Assembly (NCBI GenBank): GCA_007833815.1 | Contig: CP033464.1 | Location: 110,001 to 174,000 of the forward strand | DNA from: Brevibacillus laterosporus | Lineage (GTDB): Bacteria; Bacillota; Bacilli; Brevibacillales; Brevibacillaceae | Direction of reading: 5' to 3' | Length of the DNA: 64,000 nucleotides | Notes under the pieces: generated by a model | The model's input: only the letters and a program-made list of their open reading frames with translations | What the model was told of the DNA's origin: nothing | Database searches by the model: none | Shown: positions 5,321-35,194 of the stretch, piece after piece | How positions within the stretch are numbered: the stretch's first letter is position 1 | Layout: each line of letters starts with the position of its first letter | Translations under genes and position numbers: made by a program

Positions 5321-7483
5321 ATGAGACAGGTCGTGAATGATATGAATTTATTTTCTTCCGGTAACGATACGTTATTTCAGTCCATTATTGCCGAAGCTCC
5401 GTTAGGCATCATTAGCGTGGCGGATACTGGTCACATCCTTAGCTGCAATCATGCAGCCAGTAGCACATTTGGCTACCGGGAAGAAGAGATCATCGGCAAA
5501 TCCTTTCCTATCTTATTTCCAACCATTCATGGATCTACCTTTCATTCTTTATTTCAACAAGGAAACCAATCCATTCCTTTATATAATCAGGAATGGATTG
5601 GTTTACACAAGAATGGAGCTAGCTTTTCCATAGATGTACACACAACAATCATTACAAACAGTACTCCTCGAATTCTTGCCATCTATGTCAAACAAAATCA
5701 GAGTCAAAAATCGGACCTTTACCAGTCCCTGTTTGAGCAGAATCCTTTCCTTGTATATTCTACGGACTTACAAGGCAGAATTTTCAGTTTAAACCATGCA
5801 AGCGAACAGATTCTAGGCTACTCCGCACATGAGTTAATTGGCCGTTCTTATCAAGATTTGATGATGTTTGAGGAAGATCGAACTGCCGAAAGTATACGAT
5901 TCCGTCGTGTTCTTCAAGGAGGGCATTATAAGCTAGAAATCCCCTTTTGCAATAAACGTGGGCACCTGATCTACATTTGCCTGATCAGTTTTCCTAAAGT
6001 ATTTGAGTCACAGGTAGTAGGCGTGTATTTTATGGGGTTTGATATTACGGCTCGAAAACAAACAGAGCGTGCTCTCATGATGGCTCAGGAAGATTTGAAA
6101 AACACGCTTCAAATGCAAAAAGGCATGACCTTTAAGTTTATCAAATCAGGTAAAGAATTTATCTATACAATGGCAGATGGAGAACTGTTGTATCGTCTTG
6201 GTCTCACACCAGAATATGTGGTAGGTCGACGTATGCAAGATGTGCTCCCTTATCTACAAAGTAAACGCAGTTACTACGAAAAAGCCTGGCAAGGAGAGAC
6301 TGTCAGCTATGAAGAAAATGTGATAGGAGTCTGCTATGTAGCCTCCTTGCGTCCTATTATGCGTAATGATCGTGTGGTAGAGGTTATTGCTTCATGTATC
6401 GACATTACAGAACGAAAAAAAGCAGAAGAAGAACTGCGGTCAACCAAGGATTTACTCGAATCTCTATTTACCAACTCAACCGATGCGATCTATGTCTTGG
6501 ATCTAGACGGTACTGTATTACGTATTAATCATGCCTTTGAAAAAATGTATGGCTGGAGTAGCGATGAAGTAGTTGGTCGCCCATTGCATGATTTTGTGCC
6601 AAATGATTCACAGCAGATGATTTTCGTATGCCGTGATAAGCAGGAGAATGACTACATCACCAGCTATGAAACACTTCAGGAGCGAAGAGATGGTAGCAAA
6701 ATCTATGTCAGCTTGAGCCTATCTCCAATTCATGATGCAACAGGAAGAATTGTGGGAACAGCGACTATTTCTCGAGATATTACGGAGCGAAAAGCAACAG
6801 AGCAACTATTGCTTAACTCTGAAAAATTATCTGCTATAGGTGAATTAGCTGCTGGGGTAGCCCATGAAATTCGCAATCCCTTAGCAGCTTTGCGCGGGTT
6901 CGTTCAATTGCTACGCTCATCCGTAAAAGACTACCAGCCATATTTTCAAATTATGCTGACCGAATTAGATCGTATTAACATGATTGTTAGCGAACTATTA
7001 GTTCTCTCAAAACCACAAGTATTACGTTTACAGCGAAAAAGCCTACATCAATTGTTGACCAGCGTTGTTTTGCTTTTACAGACGCAAGCTATTATTAGTA
7101 ATGTACAAGTACTACTTGAATTTGGTGAAGATGATCCTTATGTAGAATGCGAGGAAAACCAATTAAAGCAGGTTTTTATCAATTTACTTAAAAACTCTTT
7201 GGAAGCAATGGATAGTGGTGGCATTATACAAATTACAGTAAGCACAAAAGAAGAAAGTACTTATATTCAAGTAGTTGACCAGGGGTGCGGTATTCCTGAT
7301 GAGCTTATCTCTCAATTAGGGCAACCATTCATCTCCACAAAAGAAAAAGGAACTGGTCTGGGCCTAATGATCACTCAAAAAATCATTAAAGAGCATCGTG
7401 GTAATTTATCTATTACTAGCGAAGTAGGCAAAGGAACAACAATTACAATCCGACTGCCACTCGCTCACCCCCCTGTTATATAA
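5321..7483 (+). CDS. Multi-PAS sensor histidine kinase (orphan, Kin-type)
   Basis: 720 residues without transmembrane segments. Four PAS-like modules can be seen at about 18-125, 130-250, 270-370 and 375-490, the last with NSTDAIYVLDLDGTVLRINH and three ending in DITxRKxxE linkers. A HisKA domain follows with the phospho-acceptor in GVAHEIRNPLAALRG (His515), then a HATPase with N box NLLKNSLEAM and G boxes DQGCGIP and GTGLGLMI. It resembles B. subtilis KinA/KinE sporulation kinases, and no response regulator is adjacent. That suggests it feeds the Spo0F/Spo0A phosphorelay; this is inference. No clear ribosome binding site precedes 5321; GTG at 5333 or ATG at 5342 are alternatives. Confidence 0.85.
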   Translation: MRQVVNDMNLFSSGNDTLFQSIIAEAPLGIISVADTGHILSCNHAASSTFGYREEEIIGKSFPILFPTIHGSTFHSLFQQGNQSIPLYNQEWIGLHKNGASFSIDVHTTIITNSTPRILAIYVKQNQSQKSDLYQSLFEQNPFLVYSTDLQGRIFSLNHASEQILGYSAHELIGRSYQDLMMFEEDRTAESIRFRRVLQGGHYKLEIPFCNKRGHLIYICLISFPKVFESQVVGVYFMGFDITARKQTERALMMAQEDLKNTLQMQKGMTFKFIKSGKEFIYTMADGELLYRLGLTPEYVVGRRMQDVLPYLQSKRSYYEKAWQGETVSYEENVIGVCYVASLRPIMRNDRVVEVIASCIDITERKKAEEELRSTKDLLESLFTNSTDAIYVLDLDGTVLRINHAFEKMYGWSSDEVVGRPLHDFVPNDSQQMIFVCRDKQENDYITSYETLQERRDGSKIYVSLSLSPIHDATGRIVGTATISRDITERKATEQLLLNSEKLSAIGELAAGVAHEIRNPLAALRGFVQLLRSSVKDYQPYFQIMLTELDRINMIVSELLVLSKPQVLRLQRKSLHQLLTSVVLLLQTQAIISNVQVLLEFGEDDPYVECEENQLKQVFINLLKNSLEAMDSGGIIQITVSTKEESTYIQVVDQGCGIPDELISQLGQPFISTKEKGTGLGLMITQKIIKEHRGNLSITSEVGKGTTITIRLPLAHPPVI

Positions 7484-33120: not shown

Positions 33121-33987
33121 TCATTCTTTTTTGTCTTTTACTAATTGAAACAAACGGAACAAATGCATAGCCATGTATCCGACCTCGTCATCTGGCACTT
33201 TAACCTCTAACTTTAGTGAGATAAGCTCTCCTAATTGTGAGGCCAGTTCATACGCCTCTGGAAGCATCGTTTTTACGCGATCCAACAAGGGATTTTCTAT
33301 TGTTTTGCCTTCCTTCAATCGTTCCAGAACGAAGCGGAAATGCGTAATCATTCGAGTATAGTGTAAGCTTTCCTTTGTTACCTTCAAGGTTAAACTCTCT
33401 TCCACCATTTGGATCATCTCAAGGATGAGGTTGGTATGCTTCACTGTCTGCGCTACTGGGATGTAGCTAACAGCCGAGTGAATATGCAACGCCAAGAATC
33501 CAATTTCACTTTCTGGAACAGAAATAGTGAATGCATCTTCGATTAGGGCTGCCGCTCGTTCAGCGAGGACGAACTCTTGCGGATACAACGCCTGAATCTC
33601 GAACAGGAAAGGGTTTACAATTTCCATACCACTTGACAAGCGATGCACAGCAAACTGGATATGGTCAGGTAAAGCAACATGAATCAATTCATTAATATCA
33701 GGCGTCATTTCATCGCAAACCCATGAAATGATCTCTTCAGCAATATCAATAACCAACTGGTCAATTTGAGTCAAAAGGGATTGAAACTGATTTAAATGAA
33801 GCTCATTTTCCATTCGAAAGCGCTTCTCAATACGTTCATCATTCTTCGCAATCGTATAGCCTGCTTTTTGCCCAAACCCAAGACCTTTGCCAAGCAAGAT
33901 CACTTCTGTATTCACAGTTGGATCGCTTACCAAGACGACGTTATTACTTAAAATTCGACTTATGTTATAATCTTGGCTTTTGTACAC
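33121..33987 (-). CDS. glcT: GlcT-type transcriptional antiterminator
   Basis: 288 residues: N-terminal CAT RNA-binding domain (residues 1-~58, ISRILSNNVVLVSDPTVNTEVILLGKGLGFGQKAG), then two PRD domains with conserved histidines (HVALPDHIQFAVHRL, FLALHIHSA; HYTRMITHFRFVLERL, GYMAMHLFRLF). Phosphorylation of the PRDs by EIIB and HPr controls dimerisation; the active protein binds RAT hairpins and prevents termination. It has RATs both in its own leader and in the next intergenic gap, so it should be autoregulated and control the PTS/nagB operon. Confidence 0.9.
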   Translation of the reverse strand: MYKSQDYNISRILSNNVVLVSDPTVNTEVILLGKGLGFGQKAGYTIAKNDERIEKRFRMENELHLNQFQSLLTQIDQLVIDIAEEIISWVCDEMTPDINELIHVALPDHIQFAVHRLSSGMEIVNPFLFEIQALYPQEFVLAERAAALIEDAFTISVPESEIGFLALHIHSAVSYIPVAQTVKHTNLILEMIQMVEESLTLKVTKESLHYTRMITHFRFVLERLKEGKTIENPLLDRVKTMLPEAYELASQLGELISLKLEVKVPDDEVGYMAMHLFRLFQLVKDKKE

Positions 33988-34061
33988 GCAGACACCACCA
34001 TAGGTCAGAATTACGAACTTGTAATGAGAATCCCTGCGTATCCTGCAACAGATAAAAAGTC

Positions 34062-34148
34062 AAAAAAGAGCCAACATCAGATTTTCTCCACGAAAAAACA
34101 AGAAAGAAAAATCCTTTGTGGCTCATGCCTGTTTATAACAGTAACACG
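34062..34148 (-). promoter_or_regulatory. RAT antiterminator/terminator switch in the glcT leader
   Basis: CGTGTTACTGTTATAAACAG then GCATG at 34124-34148 (minus strand) is a second RAT, alignable over 25 bases with the one at 33082. It runs into a terminator: GAGCC/GGCTC outer stem at 34068-34124, an inner AGGATTTTTC/GAGAAAATCT stem, and a TTTTTT tract at 34062-34067. Confidence 0.8.
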
Positions 34149-34177
34149 CCTGTAAACGCATTATTCGCTTCATGTAC

Positions 34178-34205
34178 ATTTTACTATAAAGTTGATAAAA
34201 GTCAA
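34178..34205 (-). promoter_or_regulatory. Sigma-A promoter of glcT
   Basis: On the minus strand TTGACT (34200-34205) and TAAAAT (34178-34183) are separated by 16 bases, about 30 bases upstream of the RAT, a fit for transcription starting at the RAT leader. Confidence 0.65.
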
Positions 34206-34232
34206 TCATAACTTATCATTTTTATGAATTAG

Positions 34233-34593
34233 CCGAGAACACTCGTGATTTTAATCATGAGATGAATCTCGGACAAAGCGTGTCTTCTGACACGTTACTT
34301 GTCCGACTACTTCTTTGAATAACTAACAAGAACAGGTATACTAATCTTGTACAGATTGCTCATTGAAAACTGAATGTATGGGGTTGCCATAAGGAATGCT
34401 TTGTGGCGTAAAACATTCAAGCACCTTCGTCCTCTCTGACCGAAAAGCGAAAACCAAGCAGTAGGTCAGAGAGAAGAGTCCAACGTACACTTTTTTTCAA
34501 TAACCGTAGGGACTACGGGGATAGCCTGCTAATTCTCACTTCGTTGGATGTGATAGCGCAGGAATCTCGTGGCTTTAGCCATGAGAGGTTCAA
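34233..34593 (+). mobile_element. IS200/IS605-type non-autonomous element with omega-RNA-like right end
   Basis: Left end: nested hairpins CCGAGA/TCTCGG around CTCGTGATT/AATCATGAG (34233-34272), then a 36-base hairpin CGGACAA...TTGTCCG (34270-34305) that recurs upstream of the tnpA relic near 43.65 kb. Middle: GCCATAAG/CTTTGTGGC within GAATGT/ACATTC, then CTCTCTGACC/GGTCAGAGAG. Right end: CCGTAGGGACTACGG, a CCTGC/GCAGG arm and the terminal CTCGTGGCTTTAGCCATGAG hairpin followed by AGGTTCAA. This right-end order is typical of IS605 elements where the 3' end of tnpB encodes the omega-RNA scaffold. No tnpA or tnpB is present. Exact ends are estimates. Confidence 0.65.
34370..34593 (+). ncRNA. Candidate orphan omega-RNA-like transcript
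   Basis: Within the element above, 34370-34593 folds into four consecutive hairpins and ends in the GGTTCAA that precedes the guide in TnpB omega-RNAs. The bases after 34593 (AGGACCTTCTATCTAACC) would then be the guide. Expression is not shown by the sequence. Confidence 0.4.
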
Positions 34594-34618
34594 AGGACCT
34601 TCTATCTAACCATATGCC

Positions 34619-35113
34619 TTAGTGAAGCCTCACTCGTTTGTTTCCCCATTTTCTATCCCAATAAGGCAAGACAAACCGATCTAAGCCAAAGTAGCCAGCA
34701 TTACGGCCTGCTACTAAGATAAAGGTGGTTAATAAAACCAAATAAGGATTAACACTTACCGTACCACTAAATAAAAATGCATAATTCATGATAATTCCCA
34801 TGAGTCCAGAGAATGTAGTTAATAGTCCTAATAGTAGAGCAAGCCCTACCAACACTTCTGCCCAAGGGATTAAGAAGTTGAAAAAGGAAGCACCGGGTAA
34901 CGCTATATTTTCAAGAAAGGCAGCCCACCAGCCTTGTACAGCAGGGTGGTCACCACCAGCTTTTGCAATTGCACCTTTTAAGAAGCCTTCTGTTGCAAAT
35001 CCCCCACCACTTAGCTTACCCCAACCAGAAACAAGCCACGTATAGCCTAAATAAAGACGAACTAACAACAAAACAACGGAAGCACTCTGAGATTGTCGTA
35101 GCCAAGTTACCAT
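34619..35113 (-). CDS. DoxX-family membrane protein
   Basis: 164 residues from ATG 35113 with AAAGGAGTGG upstream; the longer reading from 35188 adds 25 unconserved residues. Four hydrophobic segments, with LLLVRLYLGYTWLVSGWGKLSGG, FLIPWAEVLVGLALLLGLLTTFSGLMGIIMNYAFLFSGTVSVNP as in DoxX/thiosulfate:quinone-oxidoreductase DoxD-like proteins. Its substrate or partner is not known here. The IS605-like element ends 25 bases after its stop codon. Confidence 0.82.
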   Translation of the reverse strand: MVTWLRQSQSASVVLLLVRLYLGYTWLVSGWGKLSGGGFATEGFLKGAIAKAGGDHPAVQGWWAAFLENIALPGASFFNFLIPWAEVLVGLALLLGLLTTFSGLMGIIMNYAFLFSGTVSVNPYLVLLTTFILVAGRNAGYFGLDRFVLPYWDRKWGNKRVRLH

Positions 35114-35194
35114 ACACACCACTCCTTTTTTCTCTATAAAAAATCTGGTTACTGCTGAAATAATTTTTTCGTCATTACCGATAAGCACTATTTA

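Follow-up and report, generated by a model that had tools for sequence, protein, structure and literature searches.

A short mobile element of the non-autonomous IS200/IS605 type, located in the 64,000-nt stretch of Brevibacillus laterosporus DNA analysed here (the window), probably carries an omega-RNA gene as its only cargo, which would be expressed from its own promoter behind a boxA leader and would act in trans with a TnpB protein resident in the same genome. The element is mobile, it has exact borders and a partner with matching ends, and it encloses a conserved RNA structure that is homologous to TnpB omega-RNA scaffolds in its 3' part and associated with TnpB across genomes.

Borders, target site and copies of the element

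The sequence-only reading of this DNA had proposed an orphan IS605-type element at 34233..34593, mobile, with both ends preserved and without tnpA or tnpB. The element is real, neither frame lies within it, and all of the motifs named for it were found in the sequence: CCGTAGGGACTACGG at 34504-34518, CCTGC at 34525-34529 with GCAGG at 34558-34562, a terminal hairpin at 34566-34585 and AGGTTCAA, which closes the element at 34593. Its left edge had been placed 7 nt off, the start being set at 34226 by the empty sites described below, and the promoter match and the rrn-type boxA leader had been overlooked. The features of the locus are as follows:

34221..34225, plus strand: TTTAT target, outside the element; present at 16/16 copies with an intact left end and kept in three empty sites
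34226..34593, plus strand: whole non-coding IS200/IS605-type element, 368 nt; exact empty sites in G003, G004 and G005, and 16 both-ended copies in the genome
34226..34305, plus strand: left end with subterminal hairpins; 91% identity to the left end of element L024 over 94 columns
34315..34342, plus strand: sigma-A-type promoter match; TTGAAT 34315-34320, 16-nt spacer, TATACT 34337-34342; 9/12 in a consensus scan
34350..34593, plus strand: predicted RNA inside the element, about 244-245 nt followed by the guide; from alignment A1 and covariation, with a start suggested by the promoter match
34357..34372, plus strand: boxA-like leader TGCTCATTGAAAACTG; pattern also found upstream of 23S rRNA
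34371..34419, plus strand: helix 1 enclosing helix 2, 5' domain; two-sided changes in 10 of 16 pairs
34431..34489, plus strand: helix 3 with conserved loop GCGAAAACCAAGC (34447-34459), then GAGTCCAACGTACA (34476-34489); near-invariant single strands
34503..34593, plus strand: TnpB omega-RNA-type 3' scaffold and right end; from nhmmer of the family against 34 tnpB 3' ends
34566..34593, plus strand: hairpin of the right end and the closing GGTTCAA; 94% identity with the L024 right end across the final 35 nt
34594..34613, plus strand: putative guide from the flanking chromosome; placed by analogy with the ISDra2 reRNA (PMC8612924, in part), the flank being different in 18 copies read

The window insertion has an exact syntenic empty site in three of five sister species (G003, G004 and G005), in which the alignment breaks after window position 34225 and restarts at 34594 on adjacent bases, with a joint that consists of CTTTAT and directly the counterpart of the sequence beyond 34593. 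These empty sites define the element as 34226-34593, inserted 3' of TTTAT without duplication, and, with an empty site of another copy in a different genus (G227), they confirm its mobility. In sister species G002 nothing matching was found in the region, and in G001 there was a 68% match only, up to query position 1107. The neighbours of the insertion are a CAT_RBD/PRD antiterminator gene (window 33121-33987) and a DoxX gene (34619-35188), both on the minus strand, and a read-through RNA of the element would run antisense into the 3' end of DoxX.

Further copies, whose absence would have counted against the sequence-only reading, are present in the genome (5.76 Mb, 4 contigs), where 42 matches of any length were detected, 16 of them both-ended with the window copy included (97-100% identity, 368-373 nt). 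TTTAT is found directly before each of these 16, and the right flanks of the 18 copies read are all different. The window copy and L002 lack 4 left-end nt that the other full copies have, L017 has lost its left end, L019 carries an internal deletion, and L020 (85%) and L023 (76%) are older relatives. In L018 the left end and the promoter are lost; this copy (1501-1729) begins inside boxA, right after a hairpin-like stretch, and is possibly a dead or a co-transcribed omega-RNA. Two left ends overlap in opposite orientation in L028 (2431-2496), and right ends were matched on both strands in L033 and L034.

The L279 locus was rejected as a clean empty site, since a stretch of about 2.5 kb beside the element is missing. 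The orphan of this locus (L330/L279, G289:C1, about 980962-981382) is found at the junction of that stretch, missing in comparison with G218, G073 and G199, and is flanked by histidine-kinase-like and MFS-like genes, named from a reading of their frames; the junction could be a break beside the element. For the copy on the B. halotolerans plasmid and for the provirus copy, a search for empty sites yielded no record suited to the comparison.

Twelve TnpB matches and eight Y1 TnpA matches were detected in the genome. Among the corresponding loci, the L024 element (C4:507050-508841 by count, 1792 nt) begins after TTTAT, ends in TTCAA and carries tnpA and tnpB as open frames of 147 and 387 codons, respectively. 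Its transposase matches Y1_Tnp at 8e-45, and its TnpB matches the ISDra2 TnpB of the solved structures 8h1j (E 3e-104) and 8bf8 (1e-103), the best structure match being an AI-designed nuclease. With these frames, the same target and subterminal hairpins in common with the orphan, L024 is a candidate autonomous partner.

A conserved RNA with a boxA-like leader

The inside of the element had been described from the sequence as a compact series of hairpins. The folding itself was upheld (z -6.4, with 0 of 100 shuffles as good), and the interior is better described as an RNA family conserved across Bacilli. Its structure was derived from the consensus of alignment A1, which comprises 21 sequences, the window's own included, and was not fitted to structure; L023, L088, L130, L147, L172, one of three L162 matches, L200 and L218 were left out of it. 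The 45 named pairs are paired in 95.4% of the cells and show two-sided changes in 30 of 45 cases, among them 6/6 pairs of helix 3, and the covariation score was 0.469 vs. 0.170 for shuffled (sd 0.012, 0/500) and 0.077-0.109 for slid alignments. One rearrangement of the 5' domain was seen in L293 (from 1501), in which the GCGAAGACCAAGC motif stands inside the loop of helix 2 rather than after helix 2.

The RNA has no counterpart in Rfam that reaches threshold. One candidate, Ref70 (Enterococcus sRNA 70), was rejected at 23.8 bits against a gathering score of 115 (E 0.14, over 34498-34587 only), and a group I intron or IStron was rejected likewise, as no group I family is among the nine Rfam matches listed at E ≤10 for 33900-34900. 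In the loci of eight relatives, the families matched at E ≤0.1 were only BsrG, SAM riboswitches, tRNA and, below threshold, two miRNA matches, located on the minus strand of L205 at 6749-6819, over its left-end hairpins and before its RNA. A small protein was also considered and rejected, since no frame runs across all 21 relatives (the longest frames have 13 to 79 codons); a VASPTYK stretch common to several of them is, by eye, a consequence of the conserved DNA.

Upstream of the RNA, the promoter match is one of four promoter-type sites found in the stretch vs. 1.4 expected, which alone is weak evidence. By eye, most of the relatives printed have TATAAT or a near match at the same distance from the leader, and relatives from the G218 genus have no comparably clear promoter match. 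No terminator-like site was found on the element's strand from 34150 to 34750.

The first conserved stretch of the RNA, TGYTCWTTGAAAACTR, has 10 matches in the genome, nine of them in these elements and one before the 23S rRNA. The rRNA match of the leader pattern falls in the interval that separates the 5S from the 23S rRNA gene, by count some 140 nt ahead of the latter, and the reversed pattern, used as a control, has 0 matches in the genome; as the genome is partly masked, further rRNA copies of the pattern may be hidden. From the motif and from its position at the rRNA, we take the leader to be boxA, although 9/17 aligned copies differ from the pattern at a single base. BoxA is the site of NusB/S10. 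A predicted long-range pairing between TTGAA and TTCAA was rejected as a reading of the same bases, because it is nearly invariant, and hence uninformative, and TTGAA is missing from most of the printed tnpB ends; for these reasons TTTGAAAACT was treated as boxA. The element has, like an rrn-type leader, a boxA sequence near the 5' end of a predicted untranslated RNA. In L302 (1365-1430), the Rfam Bacillaceae-1 RNA was found directly before the 23S rRNA, between boxA and the gene.

The 3' scaffold and its association with TnpB

The family profile was compared with 34 tnpB 3' ends, 29 of 78 from the records of relatives and five of 12 from the own genome. The part of the profile from about position 150 to 264 has its counterpart in tnpB 3' ends and the DNA beyond them in 23/34 cases at E <0.01, with matches of at least 82 nt in 18 of the 23 and a best E of 2e-24 (E-values for this small set of 34 ends), whereas positions 1 to about 147 gave no significant nhmmer match in the same 34 ends. 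The RNA is like an omega-RNA in its 3' scaffold, which is homologous to tnpB 3' ends, and unlike one in its 5' part, which does not overlap tnpB coding sequence, another domain standing in that place. The stop codon of tnpB lies within the CCTAA/TTAGG stem of the scaffold in 8/14 printed tnpB ends, and 17-18 of 21 orphans have CCTGC/GCAGG at that stem. As the scaffold reaches the last base of the element, the flanking DNA would be the guide. TnpB genes with this kind of 3' end, whose absence would likewise have counted against the sequence-only reading, were found both in the own genome and in related genomes.

The relation between orphans and tnpB elements is also seen in the G218 genus, in which elements of about 1.37 kb with tnpB as their only gene have the left 79 nt and a 106-nt scaffold in common with the orphans. 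In G343, the two kinds of element are 86% identical over the left 79 nt and 85% over the 106-nt scaffold; elsewhere the identity of the scaffold reaches 93%. A swap of scaffolds was detected in L294, from a species of the same genus (G001), where boxA and helices 1-2 precede a scaffold that belongs to a different TnpB clade, its identity to the 3' end of the L048 tnpB being 96% along 127 nt. A more remote example is L290, with a match of 44 nt. Similarity to the scaffold of L041 was 72-78% in L283, L291 and L292, and in L286 the match to it was confined to a 30-nt stretch. When each orphan scaffold was ranked against the 34 tnpB ends, first place among 14 went to the own genome in 4/18 cases (mean rank 4.7, label-permutation p 0.0007), and the similarity is only partly genome-specific. 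Among the tnpB genes read, a matching end was not found for the relatives in Halalkalibacter (two of five read), Paenibacillus (two of six), Bacillus FJAT-27225 (its single tnpB) and a B. arachidis plasmid (also its single tnpB).

As the module formed by boxA and helices 1 and 2 occurs with different scaffolds, it could be argued that the 5' domain works for some other system, such as an RNA-binding protein of the host or of a phage, and that the scaffold is a hitchhiker. This is very improbable: in the relatives read, judged by eye, an IS605-type right end comes after the module in all but the truncated or decayed cases.

The distribution of the RNA was analysed with a model of the 5' domain only (R1, built from 20 sequences), which detected it at E ≤1e-6 in 40/399 Bacilli genomes and 24/145 genera; up to seven candidates per genome were scored under strict filters, so the copy numbers are lower bounds. 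All 40 RNA-bearing genomes have a TnpB match (PF07282, E ≤0.001; the weakest, in G097, at 1e-5), compared with 172/359 genomes without the RNA and 212/399 overall (Fisher p 1.5e-12, uncorrected for relatedness and IS richness, with genome handles matched by eye). Counted by genus, and equally uncorrected for both, TnpB is present in 24/24 with the RNA vs. 75/121 without it (p 4e-5). Y1 TnpA was found in 32/40 RNA-bearing genomes and in 218/399 overall (Fisher 4e-4, relatedness and IS richness again uncorrected). In a partly overlapping, locus-derived set, 12/13 whole genomes have TnpB, Virgibacillus (G009) being a case of the RNA without a TnpB match, and so does one of three plasmid or viral records.

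These data bear on whether the element is an ordinary PATE or MITE, that is, a deletion derivative of a tnpA plus tnpB element in which the scaffold is kept as DNA for TnpA and the interior is passive filler. Such a derivative would likewise be mobile and coding-free and have its ends in common with an autonomous partner, and PMC7290912 (in part) describes an element resembling a PATE in which a remnant of the tnpB 3' end is present. Nevertheless, the interior has no match to tnpB among the ends compared, it is conserved across genera (24 of 145) with compensatory changes and it carries a boxA-like leader. TnpA is not known to require more than the end hairpins, and yet the upstream stems of the scaffold covary. 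We consider a simple deletion derivative unlikely, if still worth some weight, and favour an element with an omega-RNA gene.

Proposed route in trans and relation to known systems

That the element supplies a guide in trans is what we infer from the covariation of the RNA, the homology of the scaffold, the scaffold swap and the co-occurrence with TnpB, which together support it. A partner TnpA, such as that of L024, would move the element as a single strand to a position 3' of TTTAT, as its ends and the empty sites suggest. Its own promoter would then start an RNA that opens with the rRNA-type boxA, and boxA would recruit NusB/S10, with which the polymerase could continue through the structured untranslated element and past the right end into the flank. 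The 5' domain, from its position, may replace tnpB coding sequence as the 5' part of the omega-RNA, and a TnpB could load the RNA in trans through its scaffold, which is of the tnpB 3'-end kind. After excision, this TnpB would cut TTTAT plus the guide, that is, the empty donor site, and repair would restore the element, by analogy with the ISDra2 model (PMC8612924, in part); the TTTAT at 34221..34225 would act as TAM at the donor joint. In this manner the element would keep mobility and retention without the cost of a nuclease gene.

An RNA that loads TnpB could also have a role other than homing, acting as a regulator or decoy by which resident TnpB or tnpA is titrated or silenced, or targeting other DNA. 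It is multi-copy, has a promoter match and an omega-type scaffold, and this evidence does not separate binding from cleavage. However, the conserved end abuts the flank exactly at the expected start of the guide, every both-ended copy lies 3' of TTTAT and no common guide exists among the 18 read. A function of this sort appears to us quite improbable, and homing through TnpB is the preferred reading.

In comparison with known systems, the RNA resembles the reRNA or omega-RNA of ISDra2 TnpB (Karvelis 2021, PMC8612924, in part), which has a scaffold from the tnpB 3' end and the right end, a guide from the flank and a target equal to the target motif of the transposon, and the candidate partner TnpB is a relative of ISDra2 TnpB. 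In contrast to ISDra2, the RNA would not come from a tnpB mRNA: it has a promoter match, a boxA leader and an unrelated 5' domain, with no tnpB inside, and the target is TTTAT instead of TTGAT. Whereas the example described among PATEs (palindrome-associated transposable elements), in the available part of PMC7290912, consists of ends and a tnpB remnant, the present element has a conserved RNA gene. It is similar to the bcr1-bcr18 repeats of the Bacillus cereus group (PMC6542083, PMC3446304, both in part) in that these are short repeats of Bacilli, several multi-copy, with TTTAT-linked mobility and in some cases transcribed; compared by description only, it differs in that bcr1 is described as restricted to the B. 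cereus group and that the available parts of those papers describe no guide-RNA role. The available part of PMC12691694, which cites Stringer 2020, describes what boxA does for rRNA and CRISPR arrays, and the element shares with them this type of leader on a long untranslated RNA, CRISPR arrays also yielding guide RNAs.

A guide RNA without an adjacent nuclease gene has a parallel in a different nuclease family: stand-alone omega-RNA loci act in trans for IscB. PATE-like elements, TTTAT-linked bcr repeats and omega-RNAs are already known. No TnpB guide RNA led by boxA and driven by a promoter, on an element free of coding sequence, was found in the open-access literature searched, most subscription papers being outside its scope.

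TnpB guide RNAs are normally cut from the tnpB message, and here the element appears to have a guide-RNA gene of its own, promoter-driven and antiterminated, and to have given up the nuclease. This makes testable how guide RNAs became separated from the genes of their nucleases, by what means a non-autonomous element outlasts its excision and whether one TnpB serves many elements, and the natural 5' domain may suggest ways of expressing omega-RNAs apart from tnpB. There is about an even chance that the elements form a widespread, undescribed class of stand-alone guide-RNA transposons of Bacilli, in which a reusable boxA-led module captures the scaffold of a resident TnpB and makes any TnpB a shared homing nuclease for protein-free elements. 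If this is true, such a class would live with TnpB as an RNA-only parasite or partner, and it would offer a natural way in which guide RNAs acting in trans came to be encoded separately, as in CRISPR systems.

Relatives were retrieved through pattern, plasmid and viral searches from Aneurinibacillus, Domibacillus, Niallia, Oceanobacillus, Sporosarcina, Trichococcus and others; nhmmer E <1e-10 was reached by 19 of the first 120 pattern loci in one search and by 2/25 in a second, and the rest were taken as chance. The plasmid record closest to the element is from Brevibacillus halotolerans. Two viral contigs with one dataset number, L217 (3106-3362) and L218 (7916-8174), hold near-identical copies, so the element may also occur in proviruses. 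Of 382 plasmid records in which a match was detected, 379 are from Enterococcus; 18 of them were listed, each aligning with the left 51 nt of the element at 88.5% identity, and these are probably TTTAT-type IS605 relatives.
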